Of a stretch of 25,759 nt of DNA, positions 6,359-23,683 are shown one piece after another (position 1 is the first letter of the stretch; each line of letters opens with the position of its first letter). The notes beneath the pieces were generated by a model, which saw nothing but the letters and a program-made list of their open reading frames with translations, was not told the DNA's origin and ran no database searches. Both the position numbers and the translations under genes were made by a program. Source of the stretch: a virus; the IMG/VR virus record IMGVR_UViG_3300033273_000465, positions 1-25,759 of that record; one strand, given 5' to 3'.

Positions 6359-6524
6359 TTTGTTTTAACTCATATACTTGTTTTTCTAAGTTTTTAATTC
6401 TCTCCTCATTTTCGCCGATAGTATCAAAGAAAGCTGCCATCATTGATTCTAGCTTCTTATTAAGATAATCTGTATCGACCTTAGTTCGTTCATTCAAAGG
6501 AACTTTTGTATCTTGCATTGACAT
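6348..6524 (-). CDS. Small coiled-coil protein, 58 aa
   Basis: A 58-residue frame starts MSMQDTKVPLNE and ends NGS before a TAA at 6348-6350. Its ATG shares one base with the stop of the 845-aa gene (TAATG), and its end overlaps the 297-aa gene by 11 bases, so it fills what otherwise looks like a 165-base gap. The C-terminal half (about residues 38-57, NEERIKNLEKQVYELK) has a heptad-like pattern of hydrophobic residues and charged pairs, typical of a short coiled coil. This could make it an oligomerisation or chaperone-type partner of the repeat protein upstream. That role is inferred from position only. No homologue is recognised. Confidence 0.7.
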   Translation of the reverse strand: MSMQDTKVPLNERTKVDTDYLNKKLESMMAAFFDTIGENEERIKNLEKQVYELKQNGS

Positions 6525-9061
6525 TATGTTTCACTCCATTTTGAGCCATCCCAGTATGAGAATCCATAATCGTTATCGCTTGTGACTTCGGTATCGAATA
6601 AAGTTCCCAATGAGCTAGCAGTTAGTCTTTCAAATATCTGAGTCTGAGTTACAGTTGCAATCGTTGTCAGATGATCCGTTGTAATTGTTGTAAGTGTTGA
6701 CTTACTTGTGTTAAATGTTGTAGTAGTTGTGACCGTGGTGTTAAATGTAGTTGTAATTGTTGTGTTAAATGTTGTAGTTGTACCAAACCCTGTAGTAGTA
6801 GTTAGTGTTGTATTAAATGTTGTAGTTGTAGTTAAAGTTGTTTCAGTTTGTAAAGTTGTATTAAATGTAGAAACAGTATCTCTAGTTGTTTCAGTTGTTT
6901 CAGTAGTATTGAAAGTTGTAACAGTATCTCTAGTTGTAAGAGTTGATCTATCTGTATCAAATGTTGTTGTTCTATTTGTTTCGAATGTTGTAGTTGTACT
7001 TCTACTTGTCCCTGTTTGTCTAGAACTTGCATTTGATGTCTCAAAAGCAGTTTCAAATGTTGTTGTTCTTGAAGTTGATGTATTTGCTGCAAATTGTGTA
7101 GCAGTAGATACTGAAGTATTTGTACTTCTTGAAGTATTTGTATTAGCGTCAAATAAAGTAGTAGTTGATACTGAAGTATTTGTACTTCTTGTTGTACTTA
7201 CAGAAGTATTTGTTGATTTAGTTGTATTTGTATTAACTTCCCATAAAGTAATAGTTGATACTGAAGTATTTGTATTTCTTGTTGTACTTACAGAAGTATT
7301 TGTTGATCTTGAAGTATTTGTATCAACTGCAAATGTTGTGGTTGCTCCAAATTGAGTTACAAATGAAGTTGAGTTTGTAAATGCAGTATTTGCTCCAAAT
7401 TGAGTTACAAATGAAGTTGAGTTTGTAAATGCAGTATTTACTCCAAATGTAGTTACAAATGAAGTTGAGTTTGTAAATCCTGTACCTACAGAAGTATTTG
7501 TACCTCTTGAAGTTGATGTATTATCAACATAATAAGTTGTTCTACTTGTATTTGTAGCGTTTGTGAATCCTGTATTATCAACATAATAAGTTGTTCTACT
7601 TGTATTTGTAGAGTTTGTAAATCCTGTATTGTTTGTAAATCCTGTGTTATATGAAGTACTTCTTGTTGTTGATCTTGAAGTATTTGTATTTCTAGAAGTA
7701 TTTGTGTTTACTGCAGGTAGTCCTGTATTTCTGGTTGTATTTCTGCTTGTATTTGTATTTGTCGATTCTGTATAAAATACAAAAGTAGTTCCCTGCTCAT
7801 CACAAAAACTTGCTTCATGTACTGCGTAAACAGTTAAGTTAGTAAATGAAGTTGTAAACGAGGTAGACCTTGATGTGTTTGTAGAGTTTGTAAATCCAGT
7901 AGAGTTTGTAAATCCTGTATTATAAGCAGTATTTCTTGTTGTTGATCTAGAAGTATTTGTTGATCTTGAAGTATTTGTGTTTACTGCAGGTAGTCCTGTA
8001 TTTCTAGCTGTATTTGTTGATCTAGATGTATTTGTGTTTACTGCATCTAGTCCTGTATTTCTAGCAGTATTTGTAGAGTTTGTAAATGATGTGTTTACAC
8101 CAAATGTAGTTGTTCTAGTTGTATTTGTATTTCTTGTTGTACTTACGGAAGTATTTGTACCTCTTGAAGTATTTGTATTTCTTGTTGTACTTACGGAAGT
8201 ATTTGTACCTCTTGAAGTATTTGTAGAGTTTGTGAATCCTGTATTTGCAGCAAAGGTAGTAACAAATGAGGTACTAGCGCTAAATGCAGTTACTGTAGCT
8301 CTAGTTGTATTCGTAGAGTTTGTGAATCCTGTATTTGCAGCAAAGGTAGTAACAAATGAGGTACTAGCGCTAAATGCAGTTACTGTAGCTCTAGTTGTAT
8401 TCGTAGAGTTTGTAAATGCTGTAGACGCCGAAAATGCAGTTACTGTAGCTCTACTTGTATTTGTACTGTTTGTAAAGCCTGTACTTCTAGATGTTTCAAT
8501 TACTGTGTCATAATAAGTTGTATAAGCTGTAGTTGTATCATAAGCAGTAGTAGTTTCTCTAGTTGTATTATATGTTGTTGTTCTACTTGTCTCAAAAGTT
8601 GTTGTTGTTGTAAACTCTGTTGTAGTTGTAAGAGTTGTATTAAATGTAGTTACTGTACCAAATCCAGTTGTTGTTGTAATTGTTGTATTAAATGTAGTTG
8701 TAGTTAAGAAAGTGGTAACTGTACTTTGAGTAGTATTAAAAGTTGTAACAGTTTCTCTAGTTGTTTCTGTAGTTCTACTTGTATTGTATGTAGAAACTCT
8801 AGAAGTATTAAATGTAGAGATAGTATCTCTGGTAGTATTAAAAATTGTTGTTGTATTGAAAGATGTTTCTTGTGTACCAGAAATATAGGTAGTTTGAGTA
8901 TTAGTATTTCTATCAGTGACATAAACGATTTCAAATGGCCCTGCTAGAGCGCCATTATCATTTACATATACTTCATTAACACGACGAAGTGTTCCGCTAT
9001 CATTGATAGCAAGAAAGTCGATATTACGAAGAGTACCGCTGTCATTGATATATATTGCCAT
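6524..9061 (-). CDS. Giant Thr/Asn/Ser-rich repeat protein, putative tail fibre or virion appendage
   Basis: An 845-aa protein. Residues 1-46 hold three degenerate copies of a YINDSGTLRxI unit, which I recall from marine phage virion proteins. The rest is low-complexity repeats about two-fifths Thr in places. They include TTFNTT-type blocks (about 68-190 and 690-786), 30-residue blocks with FTNSTNTSRATVTAFSAS (about 195-280), 16-residue NTNTSRGTNTSVSTTR blocks, and 16-residue FTNSTSFVTQFGANTA blocks (about 526-575). By hand count there are about 60 N-x-S/T sequons. Breaks in the pattern are a unique segment at about 405-432 containing His and Cys, and a non-repetitive C-terminus (about 808-845, ending DGSKWSET). 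The composition and position among fibre genes suggest an extended beta-rich fibre. Function and receptor are unknown. Confidence 0.85.
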   Translation of the reverse strand: MAIYINDSGTLRNIDFLAINDSGTLRRVNEVYVNDNGALAGPFEIVYVTDRNTNTQTTYISGTQETSFNTTTIFNTTRDTISTFNTSRVSTYNTSRTTETTRETVTTFNTTQSTVTTFLTTTTFNTTITTTTGFGTVTTFNTTLTTTTEFTTTTTFETSRTTTYNTTRETTTAYDTTTAYTTYYDTVIETSRSTGFTNSTNTSRATVTAFSASTAFTNSTNTTRATVTAFSASTSFVTTFAANTGFTNSTNTTRATVTAFSASTSFVTTFAANTGFTNSTNTSRGTNTSVSTTRNTNTSRGTNTSVSTTRNTNTTRTTTFGVNTSFTNSTNTARNTGLDAVNTNTSRSTNTARNTGLPAVNTNTSRSTNTSRSTTRNTAYNTGFTNSTGFTNSTNTSRSTSFTTSFTNLTVYAVHEASFCDEQGTTFVFYTESTNTNTSRNTTRNTGLPAVNTNTSRNTNTSRSTTRSTSYNTGFTNNTGFTNSTNTSRTTYYVDNTGFTNATNTSRTTYYVDNTSTSRGTNTSVGTGFTNSTSFVTTFGVNTAFTNSTSFVTQFGANTAFTNSTSFVTQFGATTTFAVDTNTSRSTNTSVSTTRNTNTSVSTITLWEVNTNTTKSTNTSVSTTRSTNTSVSTTTLFDANTNTSRSTNTSVSTATQFAANTSTSRTTTFETAFETSNASSRQTGTSRSTTTTFETNRTTTFDTDRSTLTTRDTVTTFNTTETTETTRDTVSTFNTTLQTETTLTTTTTFNTTLTTTTGFGTTTTFNTTITTTFNTTVTTTTTFNTSKSTLTTITTDHLTTIATVTQTQIFERLTASSLGTLFDTEVTSDNDYGFSYWDGSKWSET
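7344..7487 (-). repeat. 48-bp tandem repeat (two identical copies plus one diverged) in the 845-aa gene
   Basis: Copies at 7344-7391 and 7392-7439 are identical. A third, diverged copy occupies 7440-7487. Each encodes a 16-residue unit of the FTNSTSFVT type, so copy-number changes would keep the frame. Confidence 0.88.
7518..7625 (-). repeat. 54-bp near-identical direct repeat in the 845-aa gene
   Basis: A 54-base unit beginning GTATTATCAACATAATAAG starts at 7518 and again at 7572, with only a few differences towards the 3' end. It encodes an 18-residue unit of the TNTSRTTYYVDNTGF type, so unit gain or loss stays in frame. Confidence 0.8.
8121..8216 (-). repeat. 48-bp perfect tandem duplication in the 845-aa gene
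   Basis: Bases 8121-8168 and 8169-8216 are identical. Each encodes the 16-residue block TSRGTNTSVSTTRNTN (circularly permuted). Perfect identity in a region where neighbouring repeats have diverged indicates a recent duplication or ongoing homogenisation. Confidence 0.9.
8223..8402 (-). repeat. 90-bp perfect tandem duplication in the 845-aa gene
   Basis: Bases 8223-8312 and 8313-8402 are identical over 90 positions and encode two 30-residue blocks containing TRATVTAFSAS and SFVTTFAAN. A shorter, diverged third copy follows from 8403. Like the 48-bp pair next to it, this looks like a recent in-frame duplication. Confidence 0.92.
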
Positions 9062-9064
9062 ATC

Positions 9065-9289
9065 TTAACTCGAATACACAAACCATATATGACCACTACT
9101 AGTGCTACCTACGCTTACTGGCGCAGTGGTAGTGATAGTATAAGGAAGTCGAGAAGAAGAAATTGTTCCACTATCGATCTTATCGGCAGAGATAGTTACA
9201 CTCGCCATTCCTCTACTTGAATCAATACTCTCTGTTCCATCTACGGATAGACCAGCGTCTTCGATGTTAAAGTTTAGTTTCTGTCCCAT
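9065..9289 (-). CDS. Small fibre-associated protein, 74 aa
   Basis: The protein carries an ISADKIDSGTISSSRLP segment (about residues 33-49), the same I-x-x-x-K-I-x-S-G-T-I pattern found in many phage tail fibres. It ends GHIWFVYSS, a C-terminal form I recall from fibre tips in marine phages (GDIWFVY). It sits 1 base after the 916-aa fibre stop and 3 bases before the 845-aa repeat protein start, in one transcription unit. It may be a stand-alone fibre tip or a connector between the two large proteins. No enzymatic motif is seen, and the role is inferred from motifs and position. Confidence 0.75.
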   Translation of the reverse strand: MGQKLNFNIEDAGLSVDGTESIDSSRGMASVTISADKIDSGTISSSRLPYTITTTAPVSVGSTSSGHIWFVYSS

Positions 9290-9290
9290 A

Positions 9291-12041
9291 TTATACCTCT
9301 ATTGTTGTTCTAATAAACTTGTAACTCATTGTATCAGTTGTCTCTGGAGTTACTAATAATCTTATATTCCCTGCATTTACATCTGCGTCAAATGTTGCCT
9401 GTGCAACATTATCAAATATAGAAGCGTACTGTGTTAGGTAAACTGTTGTACCATCATGGAATAATAATATCTCTAATACTTGATAATCACCATCAGTTGA
9501 GTTATGAACTTGTACTATATATTTAGCAGTTCTAAATGTAGCTGCTGCAAAAGAGTCCAATGCAAATTGTGTTGTTGAAGATGAACTTCCTGTACCTACA
9601 TCCATACCAGCTACTTCATCTATGTGAAGTTTCTGAACTGGTGCTGAATCTTGAATACCTAGTTTCTGAATATTTGTAATATCAGAAGTATCATCACCTA
9701 AGTTTACATTTCCTGAGAAAGTAACTGTACCAGACATTGTTTTGCCTGATAATCCAGCACTTGATAATTGTGTAGAAGTTACAGCATTTCCTGCTATTTC
9801 ACTTGAACCCACAGCGTTTGCTGCTATTTCACTTGACCCAACAGCATTGCCTGCTATCTTAGTGGCTGTTACTGCATTTGCTTGGATTTTTGCTTCTATG
9901 ACTGAATCTGTTGCTAAATGAATTGCATCAATAGAACCTGTTACTAATTCTGCTGAGTCTACTGAGTTTGCTGCTAATAAATCTGCTGTGATTAATCCAC
10001 TTGTAATAAAGTTTACACTATTAATAGCATTATCTGCAATATGTACAGAAGTGACTGCATCTGTTGCAAGTTCACTTGCTGTGATAGTGTTAAGAGCAAT
10101 TTTTGCTGAAGTAACAGCATTATCTGCAATATGAATTGCATCAATAGAACCTGTTACTAATTCTGCACTATCTACTGAGTTATCTGCAAGTTCTGATGAG
10201 CCTACTGCTCCTATTGCGATTTGTGTTGCTGTTACAGAGTTTCCTGCTAGTTCAGAAGCTGTAACTGCGTTTGCTACAATAGCTGCCGAGCCTACAGAAT
10301 CTGTTGCTATTTTATTTGTTGTTACTGCATTATCTGCAATATGATTTGCATCAATAGAGCCTGTTACTAATTCTGCACTATCTACAGTATTTGCAGCAAG
10401 TGATGTTGAAAGAGCAACTGCGCCTGTTCCATCAAAGTTTACACCTGAAGCTGTTACATCTCCTGTCAAAGAAAATGCTCTTGCGGTTTCTAAAGCTGTA
10501 GCTGTATCTGCATTACCTGTTAAGTTACCAGTAACATCACCTTCTACATTTACTACAACTGTTCCAGTTGTTACAGTTAAGTCTCCTGTTGAAGCACCTG
10601 TAAATGTACCTGTACCCATAGTAAACTTATCAACACTTTCATCAAATCCAATAAACGCATTATTTGAATCGCCTCTTTCTATGACGATACCTGCATCATT
10701 TGATGGAGTTCCTGTTGTTCCTGTACCGAGTTCCATTAATGGGTCGGCAATTGTTGTTGTAGTTGAGTTAACTGTTGTAGTTGTTCCGTTCACAGTTAAG
10801 TTTCCAGATAATGTTACATTACCTGAGAATGTTTGCCCACTCAATGCATCTGAAGCTAGTTCACTTGTGCTTACAGCATTTGCTGCTATTTGTGTAGCTG
10901 TTACTGCATTTCCAGCAATGCTTTCTGCTGTTACATTATTTGCAGTAATTTTAGCAGTAGTTATTGAATTATCTGCTAAGTCTGCGGTTACGATTGTTCC
11001 ACTTACTATTTTTGCGGAAGTTACAGAATTAGCTGCTAATTTGCCTTCGGTTACTTGTAAGTCTCCAATATGAATAGTATCTATACTACCTGTTACTAAT
11101 TCTGCGCTATCTACTGAGTTAGCGGCTATTTTGTCTGCTGTCACAGAATCTGTTGCTAAATGTATTGCATCTATTGAGCCACTTACTAATTCTGCACTAT
11201 CTACTGAGTTTGATGCTAATTCATCTGCTGTAACTACAGCTGTTCCTATATGTCGAGCTTGAATACTATTTGATGCTATCTTTGTTCCATCTACTGCGTT
11301 ATCTGCAATATTTCCTGTTGCAATAGTATTTGCTGCTATTTTTGCTGAAGTTACTTGGGCAGCTCCTAAATGTTCTGTATCAATTGCTCCTGCCGCTATA
11401 TGTTCTGAATCTATAGAGTCATCTGCAATTTTTGTGCCATCTACTGCATCAGCAGCTATTTTTCCTGTTGTTACTTGTAAGTCTCCAATATGAATAGTAT
11501 CTATACTACCACTAACAAGTTCTGCTGAATCTATTGAGTTATTTGCTATGTGATCTGAAGTAATTATTGCACTTAATCCACCAGGCAAATGAATTGCTCC
11601 GATAGAGTTTTGTGCTAATTCTGATGCACCAACTGCATTTGCTGCTATTTCTGTGCTACCAATTGAGTTAGAAGCTATTTCAGCTGAAGTGACTGCGTTT
11701 GCTGCTATCTTCGCTGTTGTAACTTGTCCTGAACCGATATGAATTGTATCAATTGATCCGCTTACTAATTCACTGGAATCAACTGAGTTTGCAGCTAGAG
11801 CTGCTGAATCTATTGAGTTATCTGCTACTGCTGTAATAGCAGATGCTTGTAACTGTGCTGTACCAACTGAATTGGTTGCTAATTCTGATGAGCCAACAGC
11901 ATTTGCGGCAATTTCTGAACTACCAACAGCATTTGCTGCTATCTCACTTGCAGTAATGGAATTACTTACAATTTCCGTAGTTCCAACTGCATTTGCCTCT
12001 AATACAGAGACTAAAGCGTTTTGTTTACCTATGAGTGCCAT
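9291..12041 (-). CDS. Large repeat-type tail fibre / virion structural protein
   Basis: A 916-aa protein. Residues 1 to about 400 and about 545-765 are arrays of 9-11-residue units of the form (A/D)NxVxSxEIA, with a common compound unit NSVDSAELVTGSIDxIHI. Between them (about 400-545) lies a beta-rich module with SGNVTLSGNLTVNG, TTTVNSTTTTIADP and GNLTGNADTATALETAR motifs, a module common in cyanophage and marine phage fibres. The C-terminal domain (about 765-916) includes VQKLHIDE and a compact beta-rich region with AKYIVQVHNS, GNIRLLVTPE and FIRTTIEV, resembling C-terminal domains of such virion proteins. The start shares a base with the upstream stop (TAATG). It probably forms an elongated trimeric fibre. 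The receptor-binding part cannot be located with certainty. Confidence 0.88.
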   Translation of the reverse strand: MALIGKQNALVSVLEANAVGTTEIVSNSITASEIAANAVGSSEIAANAVGSSELATNSVGTAQLQASAITAVADNSIDSAALAANSVDSSELVSGSIDTIHIGSGQVTTAKIAANAVTSAEIASNSIGSTEIAANAVGASELAQNSIGAIHLPGGLSAIITSDHIANNSIDSAELVSGSIDTIHIGDLQVTTGKIAADAVDGTKIADDSIDSEHIAAGAIDTEHLGAAQVTSAKIAANTIATGNIADNAVDGTKIASNSIQARHIGTAVVTADELASNSVDSAELVSGSIDAIHLATDSVTADKIAANSVDSAELVTGSIDTIHIGDLQVTEGKLAANSVTSAKIVSGTIVTADLADNSITTAKITANNVTAESIAGNAVTATQIAANAVSTSELASDALSGQTFSGNVTLSGNLTVNGTTTTVNSTTTTIADPLMELGTGTTGTPSNDAGIVIERGDSNNAFIGFDESVDKFTMGTGTFTGASTGDLTVTTGTVVVNVEGDVTGNLTGNADTATALETARAFSLTGDVTASGVNFDGTGAVALSTSLAANTVDSAELVTGSIDANHIADNAVTTNKIATDSVGSAAIVANAVTASELAGNSVTATQIAIGAVGSSELADNSVDSAELVTGSIDAIHIADNAVTSAKIALNTITASELATDAVTSVHIADNAINSVNFITSGLITADLLAANSVDSAELVTGSIDAIHLATDSVIEAKIQANAVTATKIAGNAVGSSEIAANAVGSSEIAGNAVTSTQLSSAGLSGKTMSGTVTFSGNVNLGDDTSDITNIQKLGIQDSAPVQKLHIDEVAGMDVGTGSSSSTTQFALDSFAAATFRTAKYIVQVHNSTDGDYQVLEILLFHDGTTVYLTQYASIFDNVAQATFDADVNAGNIRLLVTPETTDTMSYKFIRTTIEV

Positions 12042-12373
12042 TATGTTTGCTCCAAATATGACAGAGTCACATCGATACTATCGACTACATTACTCTGTAC
12101 CTTGATTGCATCGCCAGCCTCTAATACTACTTTGGCATCGCCACCAACCACAGCTATTGTTGTTCCACTTGGTATAGGAGCTCTTGAAGTTAACCCTACA
12201 TGATTTCCAGAGCTACTGTCATAAAACTCTACATTTGCCTCTACTGAACCACCACTTTGATTACATAAATATAATCCAATTATTGTTGCAGTGGTAGAAA
12301 CTGGGCAAGTATAAACCGTCTGCAAAGATGTATTTGCATTTGGTAAAGTTGCTGTTTTAAATGATGATGCCAT
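12041..12373 (-). CDS. Virion structural protein, beta-sandwich type, 110 aa
   Basis: The pattern is a beta-rich domain: a YTCPVSTTATIIGLYLCN region, then IPSGTTIAVVGGDAKVVL, and EAGDAIKVQSN before a final strand ending LSYLEQT. This matches small structural proteins I recall from many marine phages, with PxGTTATVIGL and VLEAGDAIKV blocks. They are usually annotated only as tail or virion proteins. It sits between an Mtd-N-like anchor protein (4 bases upstream) and the 916-aa fibre (one-base overlap), which points to a fibre or baseplate decoration role. The exact position in the particle is unknown. Confidence 0.78.
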   Translation of the reverse strand: MASSFKTATLPNANTSLQTVYTCPVSTTATIIGLYLCNQSGGSVEANVEFYDSSSGNHVGLTSRAPIPSGTTIAVVGGDAKVVLEAGDAIKVQSNVVDSIDVTLSYLEQT

Positions 12374-12377
12374 ATTA

Positions 12378-12581
12378 TTATCCTAGTGCGATGGCAAGTG
12401 CTAGTACATCTTCTTCAGTCTGTCCTCCTGTCGAGCCAACCTCTACTATACTACCATTTGCTGCTTTTGTATAAATCTTTCCGTCTGCTACATTCATAGC
12501 GATTTCATGTGTTTGCAAGTCTTCAGACGCTGGTACTGAACCGCTAGTTTCTGACCTCTTTGGCTTAATCACATGCGCCAT
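12378..12581 (-). CDS. Stand-alone Mtd-N-like fibre anchor domain, 67 aa
   Basis: The sequence follows the pattern of the N-terminal anchoring domain of major tropism determinant and related fibre proteins: basic strand IKPKRSETSG, then VPASEDLQTHEIAMNVADGKIYTK, and a final G-x-I-V-E-V-G. The 526-aa fibre directly upstream begins with the same pattern. Here only the anchor plus a short acidic tail (EEDVLALAIALG) is present, with no distal fibre. It may attach another fibre polypeptide, such as the 110- or 916-aa protein encoded next, to the tail. It might instead be a remnant of a longer fibre. Spacing is 1 base from the upstream gene and 4 bases to the next one. Confidence 0.75.
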   Translation of the reverse strand: MAHVIKPKRSETSGSVPASEDLQTHEIAMNVADGKIYTKAANGSIVEVGSTGGQTEEDVLALAIALG

Positions 12582-12582
12582 A

Positions 12583-14163
12583 TTAGAATGTACCTCCGTC
12601 TAATGTATTTGTCCAAGTTATTGTTCCGTTATTGCCAACTTGTAGTACTTGTCCTACTGAGTTGGTTGAGTCATATGCTCCGATAGCTAATCTAGTGTAT
12701 GAGCCACCGCCATTTGCTCCATAGAGTAAATCGCCTTCTGAAACTGAGCCGATACCTTTAATTCTTAATGTGTCTGAGTTGATTTCAATTGTTGCGTCAT
12801 CTACATTAACTGAAAGTGTGTTTCCTGATTTTGCTAAACCGTCTCCTGCAGTAACACTACCAGCTCCTGAGAACTGTGTAAATACTAAGTTATCTGTACC
12901 AAGTGTTGCAGAACCTGTTACGCTAGTTAATACAAAACCATTATCAGCATTAGTATCACCAGCTTCAACAAATGTAAATAATCCGCCAGTTACATCTGCA
13001 CTTGAATTAGCATCACCTGTTCTAGTAAGTACAAATGCTGTTGAAGCATCACCAACAGTTGTTACAGAGTAAATACCGTTTTCAGTTGATGTTGATTGGT
13101 CTTTAACAAGTACTCTATCTCCTGAAGATAATGAAACATTATCAACTGAGATTGCACCATTAGAATCGGCAGTAAGAGTTGCGCCATCGCCACTTGTTCC
13201 ATTATCATAAGTTGCAGATAAATCAGCAGTAGTTGCTACTTTAACTGAATCTTTGATATCAAGTGCTTGTTTTACGCTATCTACATATGCTTTTGTTGTT
13301 GCGTCTGTTGATTGGCTAGGAGTACCTATATTTCGTACTCTATTACCACCCATATCAATGGTATTAGTTGAAGCGACATTAAATCCTGCGCTAAAGTCAA
13401 CTGTATTTCCAAATGTTGAGTTACCACTGATAGTTATTGTGTCTGTAGAAGCATTTCCTAAAGTTACAGCACCGTTTGCTGTTAATGCTCCTGTTATACC
13501 TACAGTAGATGAGAAAGTTGCAGCATTAGTTACTCCTAATGTACCTGAAATGCTAGTATTACCTTCTCCTGATGAAACTGTAAACTTATCTGTGTTTACA
13601 GTAATATTTCCAACAACTCCTAAGTTACTTCCAATATTTGCTGTACTTGTTACCTCTAAAGTTCCGCCTGTATTTAGAGACATAGTACCCACATTAATGG
13701 ATTCTGAGCCGTTAGTTGTAATAAATGTTAAATAAGGAGTTGTACCTTCCTTAATTACAAAAGATGCTGCTTCATTGTCAGCAATTAATAAATCTGTGGC
13801 TTGTGCATCTACATCGATACTGCCTCCATGTGTAATCACTAAGTTTGCAGTTGGTGCGATATTTAAATCACCAGATGATGTAGAAATAGTATCTGAAGAT
13901 CCAGTTAAAACTATATTACCAGTCTTTAGCTGGTCTACTTTACTAGAAGCATCTACAACAATTGCAGAACTTGCGGTAAGTGTACCAGCAGTGTGATCCA
14001 ACATAGCGACATATAAGTCACCACCTATGGTTGTAACTGTTCCATCACTTGGAGCTCCAATAAATAGCTTCTGCGAATTAGAAGAATACGCTAATTCACC
14101 AGCACTTAGTGAAGTTGGCGAGGCGGAACTGCTACTTCTTTTAATTTTAATCGTTTGTGCCAT
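12583..14163 (-). CDS. Tail fibre protein with Mtd-N-like anchor, 526 aa
   Basis: Residues 1-48 form an anchor domain (IKIKRSSSS, AGELAYSSNSQKLFIG, TVTTIGG) like the separate 67-aa protein downstream. Residues 50 to about 285 are beta-rich repeats with TLGVTNAATFSSTV and LTANGAVTLGN motifs. TDATTKAYVDSV at about 287-298 is a hallmark of phage fibre shafts. It is followed by an DIKDSVKVATTADL domain with DRVLVKDQ and NGIYSVTTVGDAS blocks, as in many lambdoid and cyanophage fibres. The C-terminus ends TLDGGTF, echoed by the IDAGAF end of the 125-aa protein upstream. It is the second large fibre-type gene of the cassette. The binding target is unknown. Confidence 0.9.
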   Translation of the reverse strand: MAQTIKIKRSSSSASPTSLSAGELAYSSNSQKLFIGAPSDGTVTTIGGDLYVAMLDHTAGTLTASSAIVVDASSKVDQLKTGNIVLTGSSDTISTSSGDLNIAPTANLVITHGGSIDVDAQATDLLIADNEAASFVIKEGTTPYLTFITTNGSESINVGTMSLNTGGTLEVTSTANIGSNLGVVGNITVNTDKFTVSSGEGNTSISGTLGVTNAATFSSTVGITGALTANGAVTLGNASTDTITISGNSTFGNTVDFSAGFNVASTNTIDMGGNRVRNIGTPSQSTDATTKAYVDSVKQALDIKDSVKVATTADLSATYDNGTSGDGATLTADSNGAISVDNVSLSSGDRVLVKDQSTSTENGIYSVTTVGDASTAFVLTRTGDANSSADVTGGLFTFVEAGDTNADNGFVLTSVTGSATLGTDNLVFTQFSGAGSVTAGDGLAKSGNTLSVNVDDATIEINSDTLRIKGIGSVSEGDLLYGANGGGSYTRLAIGAYDSTNSVGQVLQVGNNGTITWTNTLDGGTF

Positions 14164-14183
14164 GTTATATTCCTATTGAGCTA

Positions 14184-14561
14184 TTAAAAAGCTCCTGCGT
14201 CTATCGTGTCTGAGTTTGCTGAATCGTTCCCGATCATTATCGGAACAAATGTCGCTGTTCCATCGACATCTCGATAAACTTTTAACTGATTATCATCAGT
14301 GTCATAAAATAAATCTCCCTCTGCTAAATCTGTTGTACCCGCAGTGGGAGCTGTTGTTGCAACATAAAATTGATTTGCTAAAAAATTAAGTGCGCCTTCT
14401 ACAGTGGTTTCATTTCCTAGAGTACCGACAGGGTTATTAAAACTAATACCTGCAGCATCTGATACATCTCCTCCGACAGCAGAAGAAATTGTCAGGGTTG
14501 TAGTTTGTGCCGTAGCATTAAGGGTTGTATTATTAGGAGTAATAGTTATCGTTGTTGCCAT
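14184..14561 (-). CDS. Short fibre/tail protein, 125 aa
   Basis: The N-terminus is Thr-rich and beta-prone (about residues 1-30). The middle has VGTLGNETTVEGALNFLAN, followed by GDLFYDTDDNQLKVYRD (about 82-98), a motif seen in the attachment ends of phage fibres (EGDLFYDTDDNxLKVY). The C-terminal six residues, IDAGAF, match the last residues of the next fibre (LDGGTF) in form. The start overlaps the stop of the 112-aa gene by one base. A 20-base spacer separates its stop from the 526-aa fibre start. It is probably a tail or fibre adaptor. No catalytic motif is present. Confidence 0.78.
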   Translation of the reverse strand: MATTITITPNNTTLNATAQTTTLTISSAVGGDVSDAAGISFNNPVGTLGNETTVEGALNFLANQFYVATTAPTAGTTDLAEGDLFYDTDDNQLKVYRDVDGTATFVPIMIGNDSANSDTIDAGAF

Positions 14562-14899
14562 TAGCGTGTCACATTTTGTGTAACTCTTGCTACACCCTGT
14601 ATCAGTCTAGTCATTGTATTCGCACTAGAGTTATATAGTTCTAAATCATAGTAGTATTTTCCTGCTTCAATATTCGCTGTTGTTGCATATCCAAGTTTCA
14701 TTTGTAATACACCATTTGCAGCATCTGTTATTGTACAGGTGAATGTTGCTGTAAGAGTATTTGAGGAAGGGGTTGGTCGAAGTTGAGCTGAAGCTGTATG
14801 TGTACTTAAGTTGAGTGCGCTTCCGTCTTGTGCAATAGTAATCGAGAGTGCAAAATCTGCGCCCTGATCGATAACTATGTCATAATTCCCAGCTGCCAT
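14561..14899 (-). CDS. Virion-associated beta-domain protein, 112 aa, first gene after promoter
   Basis: It has a QGADFALSITIAQDG strand region, HTASAQLRPTPSS, LQMKLGYATTANIEAGKYYYDLELYN, and ends GVARVTQNVTR. This layout (GADF..., A-x-x-R-x, TA-x-L-x-x-G-x-Y-x-Y-D-L, V-x-x-x-V-T-R) recurs in small structural proteins next to tail-fibre genes in many phages and is usually annotated as a hypothetical or tail protein. The start is well supported: AGGAG lies 6 bases upstream and the promoter's expected transcript start is about 15 bases upstream. It leads the fibre cassette. The particle location is not known. Confidence 0.78.
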   Translation of the reverse strand: MAAGNYDIVIDQGADFALSITIAQDGSALNLSTHTASAQLRPTPSSNTLTATFTCTITDAANGVLQMKLGYATTANIEAGKYYYDLELYNSSANTMTRLIQGVARVTQNVTR

Positions 14900-14905
14900 A
14901 AAATA

Positions 14906-14910
14906 CTCCT
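14906..14910 (-). promoter_or_regulatory. Ribosome binding site of the 112-aa gene
   Basis: AGGAG on the minus strand, 6 bases before the ATG at 14899. It is a stronger Shine-Dalgarno match than most junctions in the operon, where starts overlap stops. Confidence 0.85.
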
Positions 14911-14920
14911 ATATGCAATA

Positions 14921-14949
14921 ATTATATCAAAAACTTGAGGTGGTGTCAA
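14921..14949 (-). promoter_or_regulatory. Consensus sigma70-type promoter with extended -10
   Basis: On the minus strand, -35 TTGACA (14944-14949) and -10 TATAAT (14921-14926) are both perfect consensus and are separated by exactly 17 bases. The -10 is preceded by TG plus one base, an extended -10. Transcription should start near 14914, leaving a leader of about 15 bases that already holds the AGGAG at 14906-14910. It lies in the only sizeable gap between late genes and reads into the fibre cassette. A match this exact is unlikely by chance in 80 bases. Confidence 0.9.
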
Positions 14950-14979
14950 GAACTATTTTTGCGGGGGGTTTTCTTTACC

Positions 14980-15168
14980 CTACGATTTAGGATACTTGTC
15001 CTTGACTGCTTTTAGCTCTGTATAAAAAGAGGTTAATTTTGCATTATCCCCAAATACTCCGTCATCTATGGCGTGCCAAAGTAAATCAAGCTGAGTTCCT
15101 AAGGTTGGATAATATTTTTGTCTTTTATCAGAGTAAGTTGCATTTGCTGTTTCTAAATCTATATTCAT
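14980..15168 (-). CDS. Small conserved tail-region protein, 62 aa
   Basis: It contains YYPTLGTQLDLLWHAIDDG (about residues 19-37) and ends KAVKDKYPKS. This Y-P-x-x-G-x-Q-L-D-x-L-W-H pattern with a terminal VKxKYPK is a small family I recall beside fibre genes in many phages, generally of unknown function. It is largely helical by appearance, without a signal or membrane segment. Its start overlaps the stop of the 140-aa gene (ATGA). It is the last gene before the internal promoter, so it closes the upstream tail-tip segment. It could be a fibre-assembly helper; I have no direct evidence. Confidence 0.75.
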   Translation of the reverse strand: MNIDLETANATYSDKRQKYYPTLGTQLDLLWHAIDDGVFGDNAKLTSFYTELKAVKDKYPKS

Positions 15169-15587
15169 GCTAATCTCCTGTTTACTATTATATTTTGCCC
15201 CGCTGAATAATATTTATCTTTTTTAAATTGTAGTATATGGCGTCCTGCCATTGTTCCTGTAAAAGTTAAATCTCCGCTTTCGTATGTACCTTGTGATACT
15301 CTATTTAAAAATACTTCTGTCCCTGCTGGACACCCTGTAACTGTAACTACTCCATCTATATCTATAGTAGTTGCAGAAAAAGTTAAATTAAATGAATGAT
15401 ATCCGACTATATTATCTTCATTATCATTTACATAAAAATGGTCACACGCAGGTATTTGCTCTAAATCAAGAGATAAATATGATAATCCTAATGCTGCTTG
15501 TGAATCAATTATATCTTGTGTAACGGGAGCGTCTGCAGCCCATTTAATATTTTTATTTGAATCGTAAAATATATGATAGGTGCTCAT
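15165..15587 (-). CDS. Tail-associated protein with C-terminal beta domain, 140 aa
   Basis: The N-terminal half (about 1-60) resembles tail-fibre-assembly-like small proteins in style: YHIFYDSNKNIKWAAD, then a helix, then a region around HFYVNDNED. The C-terminal half (about 70-140) is a compact beta unit. It has TVTGCPAGTEVFLNR, then GDLTFTGTMAGRHILQFKK and YYSAGQNI, like the invasin or PEGA-type repeats in which a short loop (PAGTEV) is followed by a G-x-H/Y-x-L-x-F strand. It overlaps both neighbours by 4 bases (ATGA), indicating coupled translation with the MANR-family 193-aa protein and the 62-aa protein. Precise function is unknown. Confidence 0.72.
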   Translation of the reverse strand: MSTYHIFYDSNKNIKWAADAPVTQDIIDSQAALGLSYLSLDLEQIPACDHFYVNDNEDNIVGYHSFNLTFSATTIDIDGVVTVTGCPAGTEVFLNRVSQGTYESGDLTFTGTMAGRHILQFKKDKYYSAGQNIIVNRRLA

Positions 15588-16165
15588 AGCCCTAATCCTC
15601 CTGTAAAATCTTTTGCTTTAAAAATTACATATGCGTAATATATTGTTTGTTTATTTGTACCAAACTCTTCATCTGGTGCCGTACCTGCTGCATCATCTCC
15701 AACTTCAACATTGTGTCCAAACTCATGATTATAAATAGTAAGTTGAGTGGTACTCATTGATGTAGTTACTCCCATTGTAGATATTTCATCCCATGTAGAT
15801 TCTTCTTCTTCAATTAAATCATAGCCATAATTATTATTTCTTGCATGACTAGGAGAATACATTCTATTTGCAACACCGCTAGTTAAATCACTTGCATAAC
15901 ACCATCTTACTGCATACAAAGGTACATATCCTAAGCTATGAGATATAGTTGCTGTTGTCGGATTATCTAGCCCTGAATTATCATTAGTAGCATAGGGTGC
16001 GATTGAGCCCTCTCCTTTTGCATGAATTACTAAACCACGAACAGCACGAGAATCAAAAGCTAAAGGAGTTGTATTACTTGTATCAGTAACATCTACTCCA
16101 TTTTGAGAAACAAAAACACCAAAATCTGAAGTTCCTCTTTTTCCTACTATTACTCTATTTGCCAT
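15584..16165 (-). CDS. MANR-family tail protein, copy 3 (193 aa)
   Basis: The N-terminus MANRVIVGKRG..DFGVFVSQNGVDV is shared with the two genes upstream. After it come PLAFDSRAVRGLVIHAKG and a SHSLGYVPLYAVRW block, whose LGYxPL core also occurs in the 157-aa copy. The C-terminus includes IYYAYVIFKAKDF, similar in place to the KFIVLRIPC strand of the 157-aa copy. The family is probably a virion protein with a common docking N-terminus and variable distal part. It lies 2 bases after the 150-aa copy and overlaps the 140-aa gene by 4 bases. No enzyme motif is visible. I infer a role at the tail tip from the position directly after gpJ. Confidence 0.78.
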   Translation of the reverse strand: MANRVIVGKRGTSDFGVFVSQNGVDVTDTSNTTPLAFDSRAVRGLVIHAKGEGSIAPYATNDNSGLDNPTTATISHSLGYVPLYAVRWCYASDLTSGVANRMYSPSHARNNNYGYDLIEEEESTWDEISTMGVTTSMSTTQLTIYNHEFGHNVEVGDDAAGTAPDEEFGTNKQTIYYAYVIFKAKDFTGGLGL

Positions 16166-16167
16166 AA

Positions 16168-16620
16168 TTAAAAAAGTGCTGCTGTTGAAAAACCTTTAAT
16201 AACTGATACCGTTGCAGTTACAGAAGTATCTCCTGTATTACTTATTGTTCCACTTGTAGTTCCTGTATAATCACCATTTAGTGTTTGTTCAAAATTGCCT
16301 TCAAACACAAATGTTCCTTCAAAATCAGTATATAAAAGATTTCCTGTTCCTAGATTTTCAATACTTATTGCAGCTGTAGAACCACTTGCAACTGTAACAT
16401 TTGTAGAAGCATTTGTACCTCCAGCAATAGGTACTATCTGAAACTGTCCTATATCAATTGCTCCTGAAACAGACCCAAGATTATCCGTATTAAATATAAG
16501 TTGGTCTGCTGTACAAGTTGTTATGTCATCTCCTGGTCGAGAAATATATAAACCAAACTTTCCTCCTGAATGTCCAAGATTTGTATTTGTACTTTTTCCT
16601 ACTATAAGTCGATTTGCCAT
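16168..16620 (-). CDS. MANR-family tail protein, copy 2 (150 aa)
   Basis: It begins MANRLIVGKST and continues KFGLYISRPGDDI, the same start module as its two neighbours with a short insertion (NTNLGHSGG). The remainder differs from them. It is Thr/Ser/Gly-rich with beta-prone strands (TNVTVASGSTAAISIENLG, then GTFVFEGNFEQTLNG), and lacks the LGYxPL block of the other two copies. This suggests a shared docking end with an exchanged distal domain. Spacing to the neighbours is 1-2 bases. Function is unknown, but a virion role is likely by position. Confidence 0.75.
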   Translation of the reverse strand: MANRLIVGKSTNTNLGHSGGKFGLYISRPGDDITTCTADQLIFNTDNLGSVSGAIDIGQFQIVPIAGGTNASTNVTVASGSTAAISIENLGTGNLLYTDFEGTFVFEGNFEQTLNGDYTGTTSGTISNTGDTSVTATVSVIKGFSTAALF

Positions 16621-16621
16621 G

Positions 16622-17095
16622 TTAAGTCCATAAAGTTGCGTCGTTCATTTTGCCATACTGACAAGGTATGCGTAATACAATAAACTTGAAATTAGTTGCA
16701 GTTCTACTTACTCCTGCACCTCCACCTCCACCTTGGCCACTATCTACAAACTCTTCAAACTTTATTGGATTTATATTCGTTGTTGTTACTTCGTGCATTC
16801 CTGCTCTTTCTTGGTATCTTTCTTCTTCTGCACTAATATCATAACTTTCAATAGTTCCTTTTTTATCATCCATTGAAATACACAAAGGTATATATCCAAG
16901 AGTTCCTTTTGTAGATGACCAGTTTATTCCTGTAGTAGAGGCAGCACTGCCTCCCGCATAAGTCATTCCACTTCTTACAGAAGTAGAATCAAAGATTAAA
17001 GGCTCTGTAGGACTTAATACATTATCTCCTGGTTGAGATACTTGAAGTCCAAAATCCGTTGCGCCTATTTTTCCTAGTATTACTCTATTTGCCAT
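16622..17095 (-). CDS. MANR-family tail protein, copy 1 (157 aa)
   Basis: The first 30 residues (MANRVILGKIG..DFGLQVSQPGDNV) define the family shared by three consecutive genes. A GTLGYIPLCISMDD block, an acidic helix-like EEERYQERAG segment and a GQGGGGGAG linker at about residues 119-127 follow. It starts exactly at the gpJ stop (one-base overlap), as genes for tail-tip accessory proteins often do. It is probably a virion component associated with the tip. I know of no characterised homologue. Confidence 0.76.
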   Translation of the reverse strand: MANRVILGKIGATDFGLQVSQPGDNVLSPTEPLIFDSTSVRSGMTYAGGSAASTTGINWSSTKGTLGYIPLCISMDDKKGTIESYDISAEEERYQERAGMHEVTTTNINPIKFEEFVDSGQGGGGGAGVSRTATNFKFIVLRIPCQYGKMNDATLWT

Positions 17096-20000
17096 TAGTC
17101 TGAAATTAAAATCCTTTGATTAGTTGAATCAATTACAATATTTGCACTTGATATTGCAGATGCATTAATTGACCATCCTGCTACAGCTCCTCCAGTTTGA
17201 TTTGGAGAAGAGGCAGTAGTTCCATTTGCTTGACTGTTTGCACTATTTGCTGTAGTATGAGCATTAGCTGCATCACTAGCTGCATTAGCTGCATCACTTG
17301 CCGCATTATTTACTGAGTCTGAAGTAGCTCCACCTGCTCCTGTAATTGATCCAATTGCTATTGTTCCTTTGAATCCAGCATTACCATTTGTGTCTAAATA
17401 AAATTGGTTTGCTGAAATAAATCCATCTGATCCTAGTAATAATCCTCCGGTTGTTAAATATGTTCCATTTCCTGAAGTTGATGTACCTGCTGTATAGTTT
17501 CCAACTATGGCTCCACCTGCTAAGTGATACTGAGTAATTGTCCAACCACCTACTGTACCCCCGGTTTTATCATCGTCATTATCTTGGTAACCACTATCAT
17601 TAGTAAATCCACTAATATTATCACCTGGCTGAGCTGCAGTTGCTCCTGAAGCTGCACCTGATTCTATTGTAGAAGCTGCAGTGGCACCAATTTGTACTGA
17701 TTGTCCTATAGCTAATGTTCCATTTGCACTATAAAACTTAATAAACTTATTCCCTGAATCTTGTCCTATATTTACATTACCAGAACCATCAAAGTATACT
17801 CCTAAGTCTCCATCTGCAAATGTTGTTTTATTTGCTGTTACAAACTTACCATTATCTCCACTTGTTCCAAGTTGAATTGTATTTGCTATATTTGCTCTAT
17901 TTGTAAATGTGGTATTTGCACTTAATCTATTTGCAGCTAGTGTACCTTCTACGATAACTGAACCATCAAAAGTTTCTGTTACTAAGGCACTAAAGTTTGC
18001 CGCTGTTACTGAACCTGCAGCTGATACTGCTGATCCATTGTATATTCTTGTTCCAGCAGAATCTGCTGAATTATCTGTAACTGTTATTCTATCATTTGGT
18101 CTTAAGAATCCATCATCTGAGGATTGTATAACTGCATTTGCAACTGCAATTGCCGATGTATTATTTAATGTTCCTGCAAAGTTTACTGCCTGTGCTGCAC
18201 TTATTTCTGTAGTTGTTGACTCTTCAAAAGTAAATATTCCTGAGCCTCTAACACCGCTTGACCCATCAGCTCCCGCGTTTACTTTTACAAAAACAAGTGT
18301 TTTTGTAGCAACTGTTGCGCCGCCATCATTATCTATAATTGGAATTGTAACAGATCCTGTTTTTGTTGAGCCACTTCCAATTGCTGAGTTTGAGTTTAAA
18401 GAAACTACTCCACTTGCTGATACAGCTGAACTTACATTTACATCTGTTCTGGTTCCATATCTGAAACTATTTGCAGTATAAGGAGAACTTTCATCATAGC
18501 TATATACTTGACTTCCTTTGAATACAGTTGGACTTGAGCTAAAAGTTGTAAAATCGCTAATAGTACCACTACTGTTTGCATCAAAAGCATGTGATTCATT
18601 AGTAAAAATTACACTATATGCGTCTACTCCTGCTGCTCCATCAGCTCCATCGGCTCCATCTGCTCCATCGGCTCCATCTGCTCCATCTGCTCCGTCTGCA
18701 CCTTTTTCTCCACTTGCAAAGTTAATTAAAGTAAATGTACCACTTGTATTTGTAACTGAAGCAATAATTGAATCTTTTTGTCTATCAAATCGAAGAGTTT
18801 GTCTAAATAGATTTGCACTAGAGTAGCTTCTATCGGAGCCACTTACAACAGTCATTGAAGTATTACTTTCTACATGAGCAACTCTTGTCCAGAATCGAGA
18901 AGCACCTGCATCATCAAAAATTATTATATCTCCTGCTTGATAGTCTGATTCAAAAGTTGTAGAGCTACCTGTTACATTTGAAGAATATTGGCTTAAACTA
19001 AAAGTACCATTTGCTTGTGTTAAATCGTTATTTGGTTGTCCAAGTCTCTCAAAGAAACTAAAATAATATGGTACATTACTTGTGTTAGAGGCTGCTACAT
19101 TATCTGTTCCTAATACGATTGATCTTAGAGGGTCTGTTCTTGTTGTTCCCCTTGCTAAGTTGCCATCGTAGTCAAATAATAAATATCCTGTTTGACCATC
19201 TTCTAAACTACTGAATGATTGCTCTGTAAAATTAGTATTTCCACTTGTTATAGAAACTGCATCTACACCTGTTGGTGGTTGGAAAGTATAAGTTGAAGAA
19301 TCAAAACTTACTGTACCTGTAGAGGCGTTTATACTCATTCCTGTTGATAGTGTACCACCTCTTGCAATTACTTGGTTAATTCCTGCTCCAACTACATTTG
19401 AAGTAGGTACTGCCATATCCTGTGGAGAAAAAGTAAACTTCGCCTGAATAAACTCTGAAGTATATCCTTGTGTATTTACTGTTCTTACACGAACTCTATA
19501 CTCATCTCCTGTTGGAACATTTCGTATAGAAAAGCTATTCTGCCCTCTAGATCTAATCTCTTCTCTAGTAAATCCAATATTATTTTTTACTTTATCTGAT
19601 TGTGGAACATCATGCTCTAAATCAAATCCTGCTAAATGCTCATAAATATCATCTAGTGCATTTCCATCTTGGTCTGTTCTTATTGATTTTGGTGGAATCC
19701 ATTGTACTAATGCTTTGTATTTTGTTGTTGCATCTTCTACATCTGTGTTGTCCCCACCTTCATCATCTGGTACAATAGCTACTGTCACATTCTGTGGAAC
19801 AGGTACAATTTCTGTTCTTTTTGGAGGACGCATTACAGATGGTATATCTGGTATTACCCACCCTCTGTCTATCTGTGAAAACTTATCTACATCATATTCA
19901 GCTGCTGTAATTTCAAAGGTCATATCCTTTGTATTTTCTTTAATTCGAGTAATTATATATTCTTTTGCACTTCCTGTTACATCTGCTCCCTGTGCTGTTT

Positions 20001-22685
20001 GTCCTGTAATTGCATATATAACTTCACTATTTGGAGCTTCACTAAATGCGCTAGATACTGTAATATTTGATGAGTTATATGATGAGATTGGTTTTGTTTC
20101 GATTCTTTGATCCTCTGACCAAATAACTTGTACAAGTGCGCCTGCATCATCTTTTAATTGAGATGCAGAAGATTGAGTTGAGATAGCAGTACCGTTTGCG
20201 TGTTCTAGTATTAAATCTCCGACACTATAAGAACTTCCATTTATAGTTGCTGTTGGTTGTCCTAAATAAGCACCGCCTTTTGGAAAGATTAAATGTAAGT
20301 CAAAATTATCTGTGCCATTTAAAGAAATTGCTCTATCTGTTTCAATTACAGTAGTAGTAGAAGCTTTTGCACTAGATATACGCCCACTAAATTGAACACT
20401 GTCATTATCAGCGTCTTGAATTAAAACTACATCACCCGCTACAAGTGCACCACCATTTATACCTGTTTTAAATGTTACAACTTCTTTTTCTAATTTTTCA
20501 GTAAGTAAATGCCATCTACCAAGTCTTTGTGCTTGACCTTGTGAAGTACATCCAAGTGCTGGAATATCTTTTGTTACAACTCTTCCTGTCTCTGCTATAT
20601 TGTTATCGTCTGTAACAATTTCTACTGCTTGTTTGTATCTATTCTCAGGGTCATTCCAAGTAACTTTTACTTCATTTGTTCTAAATCTTTTTGAAGTTCC
20701 TGAGTACTCAAATGTTCCATCAATTACATTTGATTTACCAAAAGTATAGATTGGCCCTTTCTCTCTGTTTGAGTTTAAACTTATTTGACCGTTATGCCAA
20801 AGTAACATACCACGAATCATAGTGGTTAAATCTTTGAGTAGTCTTAAAGCGTCTTGACCTTTTTGAATATACAAATTACATGTAAATCTAGGCTCTGTGC
20901 TGCCTTTTCCATTTGGTACAAGTTCGTCACAATATTTTGCTAGATTGTATAATGTATATTTGTCGATTTGTGTAAAGTCAAAATCTGGGTCTACATACTT
21001 ACCAAGTCCATATCTTGGATTTGAAACTAAATCCATAAATATCCATACAGGGTTGTTACAATAAACAGGTTCATAGTTTGCAGAGGTAGCATCAAATGTT
21101 TTTTGGTCTCCTCTAAAGTTACCATCCCAGTCTACTTCTGATCCTGTATCTACACCAGTAGTTACATTTCTAGTATAAGCTGCAGCCGTTCTTCTTACTC
21201 CTGTAGAGTCATGTAATTCTTCTAGTGGAAAATAATTAGTAGGAACTTTTACACGAAGTCCTCTTACTTCATAAGCTCTTTCTGGAATATCATCGAAGTC
21301 TTCTGCGTCAACAACAACTCCTGCATATGCAGTATAAGGATAAGTTAATTTATCTGTAATAATGTTTTCGATTGAAACAACACTACCTTGGTTTGTCTGT
21401 TGCCATTTATTTTCTTTTTGATTAACTGGAGATACTCTTTGTATTTCTATTTTGTAGTCAGTAAATGGTTGATATTTTGAAATATCAAAACTAAAAATAC
21501 TATTAAAAGGTGCTTGTATCTTTCCATCTATAATTCCAGTACTTCCAGATTTTACACGAGTATTTGCATGATAAGCACTTGTACTACTAGATAAAGTTGC
21601 TCTACCAAAAACTACTTTTTGATTGTTTGAAAAATCATCAGTTGAATCTGTTTTGTATGAAAATACTATTCTATACTCAGCAAATCCAGCACCTGTTTTA
21701 CCATTTTCTTTTGTAGAAATCATAGAGGCATGGTTTAAAGTAATACGAATAAAATCAATTTCACCTGGATCCGCAATATTCATACCTGTAGATGCAACTC
21801 TAGAAATACCTGTTTCTCCATTTCTATTCGGAGAAATATCAGTATCAATTCCTAAAGCTGAGTTTGTAGGCTGCCCGATAGAGCGTAGGTCTGTTTGATC
21901 AAGAGCTTCATTTATTGAATGTGCTGAAGAAGCACTTCCAACTCCAGAAGGTGCTGATAAATAAGATTGGTCTCTTTCACCTGGTCTAAATGCCCATCCA
22001 AAGTTATTAAAGTTATACTTTAAAGGCTCTCCTGCGGCTACAGCTGGTGGAGATAGTAAAACTGCAGTTGGATTTGTATTGATTCCACCACCTGTTTCTA
22101 AAGTACATGTATTTCCAGAGTAACTTGCAACTTTATCTACTAAGTCTATAGAAACATTTGCAGATGATACTGTTTTAGCAGGTGGAGAGTCTACTCTTAC
22201 TGCTGTAGTATTTATATATTGTACAATTTGTCCTGCATATTCGCCATTTGCTACACCTGCTCCTTCAATTCTAATAAACTGATTAAGAGGTACTGTTTCA
22301 TCATATATGTCAGTATCAGCAAAAAATGCTGTTGATGTAGTAACAATTCGTGAACCTGCTGTTGTGCTACAGTCTGTTGCTCGCTTTTTACCTGCAATAA
22401 CTGAAGCGTATCTTTCTCCTTGTGTTGTAGTAATATCTTCAAATATATTTCCACCACCAATATCTGTAATAACTCCTGTAGTAGCTACATAAGAAGCATT
22501 GGGTGATCTAAACATTTGATAGTAAGTAGAAACATTTTGAGAAGCCGCAGGGTTTCCGTCTATTACAATACTATTTGGCCCATTAACTAATCCTTCTATT
22601 GGGCCTTCTGATATAGCATCATATATAACAGCAGTCTGATGTCTAGTGGACTTTGTTAATTTATTATATCTTGTAACTCCTGCCA

Positions 22686-22686
<1 letters not shown>
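17095..22686 (-). CDS. gpJ-like tail tip / host specificity protein with collagen-like segment
   Basis: An 1863-aa protein (lambda J is about 1130). Residues 20-36 hold the typical J start, DAISEGPIEGLVNG. The region to about 900 is the J-like core, with the YGLGKYVDPDFDFTQID block and a phage tail protein domain (WNDPENRYKQAVEIV). A fibronectin type III-like domain lies at about 960-1085 (RVRVRTVNTQG). Residues 1326-1355 are ten Gly-x-y triplets, seven of them GAD, forming a collagen-like stalk. The C-terminal 500 residues are fibre-like (NANRTxF, GWTITQYHLAGG, SDAANAASDAANAH), making this a J-fibre fusion. It would sit at the tail tip and bind the host receptor. It follows gpI with a one-base overlap (TAATG). 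Confidence 0.93.
18622..18711 (-). repeat. Collagen-like GAD triplet repeat in gpJ-like gene
   Basis: Ten consecutive Gly-x-y codon triplets (GEK, seven GAD, GAA, GVD) at residues 1326-1355. At DNA level the 9-base units vary at third positions (GCA/GCC/GCT, GAT/GAC), so it is not a simple slippage tract. It probably forms a trimeric stalk. Confidence 0.92.
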
Positions 22687-23368
<682 letters not shown>

Positions 23369-23372
<4 letters not shown>

Positions 23373-23683
23373 GTTGGTTCTAGTATAAATACCTCTTTTT
23401 GTGGGTAGGAAACAATTAAATATGGAATACCTACCGCATTACAGTTATCTATGTCATACTCACTTGGGCGACAATCCGAGTCGTAGTGACTATGGACAAC
23501 ATATTTTATATTTGATTTTAATTGATGATGAATGAACAACTTTGGGTCAATTTTAAACTGCGAATTGTCTTCGTGGAGATTTTCACTCGGAATATATTTT
23601 TCTCCGTTTTTATCCTGTATAACAAGTCCACAACATTCACCAGGCGCAGCTGATTCTGCATGGGCAAAAATATCCTCGATCAC
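23369..23683 (-). CDS. gpK-like JAMM-domain tail peptidase, without NlpC/P60
   Basis: A 104-aa protein with a complete JAMM metalloprotease motif: Glu16 in PGECCG, then His64-x-His66, seven residues, Ser74, two residues, Asp77. In lambda, gpK joins such a JAMM domain to a C-terminal NlpC/P60 cell-wall hydrolase domain. Only the first is here, and the next gene is gpI, so no separate NlpC/P60 is encoded in the window. Known JAMM proteins are zinc peptidases; in phage tails the role is thought to be processing during assembly or entry. It overlaps both neighbours by 4 bases (ATGA). The motif is intact, so activity is plausible. The substrate is unknown. Confidence 0.9.

Follow-up and report, generated by a model that had tools for sequence, protein, structure and literature searches.

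In the window, namely the whole virus record of 25,759 bases that was analysed, we have identified a site that is probably a late-class promoter of the host sigma70 type belonging to an uncultured T5-like phage. By analogy, this fibre promoter is most likely comparable to P-G25 of T5 and borders an exchangeable fibre cassette, and comparison with relatives suggests that it is one of about four promoters in the late cluster. The site and its surroundings are composed of the following features.

14949-14921, minus strand: promoter, TTGACA CCACCTCAAGTTTTTGA TATAAT, 12 of 12 consensus positions, spacer of 17 bases, TGA ahead of the -10
14944-14949, minus strand: -35 hexamer TTGACA, found as such in 60 of the 66 promoter-bearing sequences, which were selected by TTGAC
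14921-14926, minus strand: -10 hexamer TATAAT, extended by TGA in front; TATAAT in 35 of 35 representatives, the search pattern allowing TATAAT or TACAAT
14950-14960, minus strand: A-rich upstream element AAAAATAGTTC, -46 to -36, with column identities of 0.84-1.0 in the 35 representatives
14965-14966, minus strand: CC (-52/-51) in an upstream C-rich stretch, enriched at fibre and portal promoters
14915-14920, minus strand: discriminator TATTGC, the first base of which (T) is the proposed late mark from the early/late comparison
14906-14910, minus strand: AGGAG ribosome-binding site with a leader of about 15 bases, read from the sequence
14561-14899, minus strand: first gene of the fibre cassette, LtfC-like, 112 aa (phrog_1084, 5.5e-28)
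4530-14561, minus strand: rest of the cassette, fibre-like and terminal genes with small or no gaps, from the gene layout and PHROG matches
14980-15168, minus strand: gene of 62 aa immediately preceding the promoter, belonging to one of the three families that blastp grouping gives at this position

The original prediction had described a perfect-consensus promoter with an extended -10 (TGn), an AGGAG and a leader of about 15 bases, and this description holds. Indeed, TTGACA and TATAAT lie within the 16-18 bases of each other that are expected of a sigma70-type promoter. The distance from the promoter to the ATG at 14899 is 22 bases, and transcription would start at about 14914, 7 bases past the -10, to give a leader of 15 bases. 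The intergenic gap that accommodates these elements (80 bases, from the stop of the upstream gene at 14980 to the ATG) is the largest in the minus-strand cluster of the window. A stretch at 15010-14935 folds somewhat better than its shuffles (z -2.7) but was rejected as a terminator, since it precedes the start and lacks a T-run.

When positions 5001-25000 were searched for sigma70-like sites matching at least 9 of the 12 consensus positions, 76 were found against 79.6 expected from shuffles; because the count is at the level of chance, weak sites in this AT-rich window are uninformative. The fibre promoter is nonetheless the only 12/12 site in that range, and a search of the complete record for the exact TTGACA/TATAAT pattern, with spacers of 16-18 allowed, gives this one match. 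By a weight matrix trained on 82 sites from five relatives, without the fibre sites, it scores 37.1 bits and is the only match above 8 bits in the window; five random sequences of similar dinucleotide make-up, which were drawn from dinucleotide frequencies and are not exact shuffles, reached at most 14.6 bits.

The protein encoded directly behind the promoter also matches phrog_3304, “L-shaped tail fiber protein assembly” (3.5e-16), and gives 22.4 bits with PF23926 (LtfC), under the cut-off of 27. The promoter had been proposed to read into the fibre genes and into sugar-related genes at the end of the cluster. Fibre-like genes do follow, whereas the label “sugar-related” was not borne out for 6358-4530: the gene at 6358-5465 (minus strand) matches PHROGs of unknown function only, and Pfam and PHROG searches with the terminal gene at 5468-4530 (minus strand) gave no match.

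We then compared the window with 67 viral loci that had been found with the LtfC-like protein, making 68 sequences in total. A promoter, defined as TTGAC-N-17-TAYAAT within 90 bases upstream and hence with the spacing preset, is present in 66 of the 68 sequences encoding the LtfC-like protein, and the two without it (L066 and L067) are distant relatives (39%). The original assignment to a host sigma70-type site thus appears sound as far as sequence can tell. Among 35 representatives (less than 95% alike by ungapped comparison), the A-rich element, which is outside the selecting pattern, contrasts in its high column identities with the positions upstream of it, mostly at 0.25-0.5. The spacer is 17 in 95 of the 96 matches obtained with a pattern search of 18 records that allowed 16-18. 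Also, throughout the 398,434 bases of the 35 representative fibre loci, the fibre promoter is the only match to the motif, as scanned for sites beginning with TT and scoring above 20 bits.

The same motif, AAAATAGTTC-TTGACA-N17-TATAAT on average over 87 sites in five relative genomes (G001-G005) and accompanied there by the A-rich upstream element, occurs in about 20 copies in each of these genomes of 80-105 kb. Weight-matrix matches above 15 bits number 19-22 in each relative, these being the same genomes that were used for training, and random sequences gave 0-0.4 matches above 12 bits per sequence. Exact matches range from 2 to 17 in nine records of at least 40 kb and are one or two in smaller records, while a backwards control pattern gave 0 in 18 of 18 records. 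The search for the same sequence elsewhere, which had been suggested as a check, therefore comes out empty in the record itself and positive in its relatives, and the idea of the fibre promoter as an isolated oddity is rejected because it is one of about 20 such sites per relative genome.

These relatives look T5-like. The gene set of G002 (105 kb) is T5-like (Demerecviridae-like), with a terminase at 48% to that of Pectobacterium phage My1, an NAD ligase in two genes with D5 after it, DnaB, primase, polymerase and SbcD; D5 is found at 48-50% identity in all five genomes. The window, a fragment of 25.8 kb, has genes for tail, fibres and ribonucleotide reductase in common with the T5-like relatives, and its ribonucleotide reductase is closest to those of pelagiphages (66% in the top row). 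A DNA search of cultured phages gave no match. As for the host, a search for the LtfC-like gene in bacterial genomes gave 131 pattern matches, none of which was confirmed, and tRNAs as a clue amounted to one in 26 stretches.

What distinguishes the promoters of late genes from those of early genes, with early and late assigned by gene content and not by timing, is the base after the -10. When G001-G005 were scanned without scoring the discriminator, 17 of the sites above 20 bits fell within the late cluster and on the same strand as it, and the other 75 lay elsewhere. Each of G001-G004 contributes four late sites, which are at TerS, at a gene situated below one of 594 aa, at the gene in front of portal and at the fibre cassette; the partial genome G005 contributes one, at the fibre cassette. 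“AT” directly follows the -10 in 1 of the 17 late sites versus 59 of the 75 others. In further loci of two late genes (portal and TerS) and two early genes (primase and ligA), from which representatives less than 90% alike were taken by ungapped comparison, it does so in 1/61 late versus 31/32 early ones. A pyrimidine is found there in 55 of the 61 late representatives (portal, 19/21; TerS, 36/40) and in none of the 32 early ones, where the base is A throughout (primase, 22/22; ligA, 10/10). The fibre promoters have a pyrimidine in 34 of 35 representatives, and the one in the window has T; early promoters, as at primase and ligA, have A, mostly ATA. When 35 positions were compared, the contrast in pyrimidines between late and early sites was greatest at this very base, with 0.93 among 96 late and 0.00 among 32 early sites. 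A scan of viral contigs with the motif, in which any discriminator was accepted, showed T at 52 of the 55 late sites and A at all 28 early ones; it covered 80 listed loci of 119 stretches with 83 sites, and its 36 representatives comprised 20 late ones with a pyrimidine, two late ones with A and 14 early ones with A. The late sites with A after the -10 are TerS of G003 (the 1 of 17), the fibre locus L061, 6 of the 61 and 3 of the 55.

The samples behind these counts are not fully independent. Before counting at the four genes, we dropped the loci belonging to G001, G002 and G004 (two portal, one primase, three TerS and one ligA), one ligA locus matching from residue 110, and five loci too short upstream; the representatives left in partly repeat sites of the five genomes (e.g., L138, L218, L299 and L378, which are G002). 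The discriminator-free scan likewise includes L484 and L487, which are in G005 and G004 themselves, and others from records already sampled, and, under the ungapped comparison used for the fibre, four-gene and discriminator-free samples, an insertion may have caused near-copies to be counted twice. Because of the kinship among the sequences and the renewed use of some sites that defined the rule, p-values overstate the contrast and their exact values carry no weight. The portal promoter was not found in 15 of 76 loci, nor the TerS promoter in 23 of 75.

Among characterized phages, the closest parallel is provided by T5. According to passages of a published account (PMC7472727), all three gene classes of T5 are transcribed by the host sigma70 polymerase, strong sigma70 promoters lie ahead of early and late genes, and the J5 and G25 transcripts appear late in infected cells. 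A host-type site had been regarded as odd among phage late genes; given that the host sigma70 serves all gene classes in T5, late genes included (PMC7472727), such a site is to be expected among the late genes of T5-like phages. The same passages report that early and late promoters differ mainly in the discriminator; how classes are switched with one sigma factor is called unknown there, gpT5.026 being offered as a part of the mechanism (PMC7472727). The T5 record places promoters within the late region at G25, at J5 and before oad, and notes D5 as required for late transcription. Like these three, the fibre promoter is of the sigma70 type and lies inside a minus-strand late cluster; in the window as in its relatives, it sits in the structural cluster, reads in the direction of that cluster and has a discriminator unlike those of early promoters. 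P-G25, to which we liken it, comes after the pb2 gene, has pb3, pb4 and ltf, a fibre gene, ahead of it in its reading direction, and carries a GAGGAG leader. By analogy, therefore, the kind of promoter is one already known from T5.

The fibre promoter nonetheless differs from the T5 late promoters in its perfect -35, in its place directly before the fibre cassette, in its discriminator letters and in its C-rich box. G25 has TTGATA as its -35 and the oad promoter TTTACA, and G25, which follows an annotated terminator, is several genes away from ltf, whereas the fibre promoter immediately precedes the LtfC-like gene. The discriminators ATTGTT (G25), GTTAGT (J5) and ACTATT (oad) begin with A, G and A, respectively, while that of the fibre promoter is TATTGC, so that the late discriminator letters of T5 are not shared. 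T5 early promoters, mostly TTGCTW-17-TATAAT, have in common with the fibre promoter the spacer of 17 bases (in most), TATAAT and an upstream A-rich stretch; they differ in the -35 and, as labelled by position, in having A after the -10 in 35 of 38. In another T5-like phage, AKFV33, 32 host-polymerase promoters with an A-rich -43 region were predicted; the A-rich region is shared with the fibre promoter, while the consensus is TTGCTw with a spacer of 17-18, and the passages of that account give no rule on early and late discriminators (PMC3326045). Among the matches listed in a literature search, judged by titles and abstract openings, we found nothing on promoters of marine T5-like phages; nor did the matches listed include anything on T5 late promoters and fibres.

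If the fibre promoter is of the late class, the host RNA polymerase would start at about 14914 late in infection and produce an mRNA that has a 15-base leader with AGGAG and covers the LtfC-like gene, the fibre genes and those that follow, adding to read-through from upstream late promoters. A phage factor acting at the discriminator, or through D5, would hold the promoter back early. Several points speak against this reading: a promoter with perfect consensus and TGn might need no phage factor to be active; T5 G25, which is late in T5, would count as early under the present rule; and a tblastn search of G001-G005 with gpT5.026, the T5 protein linked to the switch, gave no recognisable relative (best E of 0.62). 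The original prediction was of fibres made independently, and perhaps early, from an unregulated host promoter. The perfect consensus, the TGn and the A-rich upstream element would suit such a promoter, as would a core that is the same as in the early-region promoters. We nonetheless consider it unlikely, in view of the late-class discriminator in 34 of 35 fibre representatives versus A in 32 of 32 early ones, and of the position in a late cluster where four relatives have three more sites. A start of its own for the cassette is probably correct, to judge from the sequence, while independence from the late programme is not favoured; the suggestion of early expression runs against the class mark and appears less likely.

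The late-class reading has a variant in which a phage protein, D5-like for example, binds the C-rich box and recruits RNA polymerase, and we regard this as a minor though serious possibility. All 56 fibre and portal representatives (35/35 and 21/21) have C at -17 from TTGACA, versus 3 of 32 early ones; D5 is conserved, and the T5 record lists it as required for late transcription. The box may be an activator site. On the other hand, the box pattern with CC is also found before early genes (28 of 83 matches), for which reason we rejected it as a late mark by itself, and it is mostly missing at TerS (7/40), for which reason we rejected it as a feature of all late sites. A perfect -35, moreover, should need no activator, and inspection by eye showed none at the three T5 late promoters. 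Even less probable than an unregulated promoter, and the least probable of the explanations that we considered, is a promoter that resembles the sigma70 consensus and serves a polymerase or sigma factor encoded by the phage. The motif is very uniform genome-wide, as such a factor would have it, but it is the exact sigma70 consensus, and the sigma region 2 family (PF04542) was absent from all five genomes while 10 of 14 control genomes were positive; single-subunit RNA polymerase (PF00940) was likewise not found in any of the five, a result that says little given that the controls of this search were silent as well.

The probable late-class promoter stands at a joint between genes of different kinship. 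The gene upstream of it belongs to three families (30, 23 and 13 of the 66 sequences) with no blastp similarity at 1e-4, in a sample which, having been found via the downstream gene, covers only cassettes starting with the LtfC-like gene; the promoter and the LtfC-like gene are thus kept while the upstream neighbour varies. Compared with G001, the window is 66-87% alike in the first five genes behind the promoter and 45% in the sixth, and 33-57% in the five upstream genes; compared with G003, it is 56-70% alike in the five upstream genes and 34-45% in the first five behind the promoter, one of them only partly. We infer that the promoter travels with the fibre cassette and marks the joint where cassettes exchange. 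A swapped cassette, if this is true, would stay correctly expressed, as its own late promoter comes along. The variable upstream gene and the switch in kinship at the site could also mean that the sequence is conserved mainly as a recombination joint, with promoter activity incidental. This seems very improbable, however: the conservation fits the logic of a promoter, in that the A-rich element and the hexamers are kept and the base following the -35 hexamer is unconstrained, and further copies of the motif precede replication genes at other places in the genome.

More broadly, and with somewhat less than even confidence, we propose that in this large, uncultured marine T5-like group the near-perfect and otherwise near-identical sigma70 promoters show their class chiefly by the base that follows the -10 (A early, pyrimidine late), that the early-to-late switch is read through the discriminator, and that the exchangeable fibre cassette carries its own late-marked promoter across backbones. 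These genomes offer a natural set of promoters with a shared core and a discriminator differing by gene class, which makes the question of the T5 switch directly testable.

Some further observations were made in the course of the analysis. In 35 of 40 TerS and 9 of 10 ligA representatives, TATAAT is followed by an ATG at a distance of exactly 7 bases, and mRNAs of TerS and ligA would accordingly start at or next to the start codon and be leaderless (in G002, L110:14478-14515 for ligA and L109:11362-11399 for TerS); the fibre promoter, in contrast, has a normal leader. Directly upstream of the TerS promoter is a 15-base palindrome, GCATCGTCACGATGC (L109:11415-11429, at 51415 of G002; L117:4710-4724, at 84710 of G001), with variants in most of the 25 TerS rows listed. 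Its pattern occurs once each in G001 and G002 and in none of G003, G004, G005 and the window, and the palindrome is possibly an operator. Near both ends of the 104-kb record G001, there are near-identical promoters with similar gene starts (L113:104-132 and L118:3389-3417, at 104 and 103389 of G001).

In the window, a protein encoded on the plus strand at 3900-4544 matches PF00777, glycosyltransferase family 29 (sialyltransferase), with 44.8 bits against a cut-off of 23, the match being limited to residues 11-57. This GT29-like gene, the sole sugar-type match, adjoins the fibre cluster in opposite orientation. Within the cluster, 6524-9061 (minus strand) encodes a protein of 845 aa that consists mostly of repeated Thr/Asn/Ser/Arg motifs (NTSRNTN and similar); in three relatives, its best match is confined to the first 64-93 residues, and in a fourth it spans a middle part at 37%.
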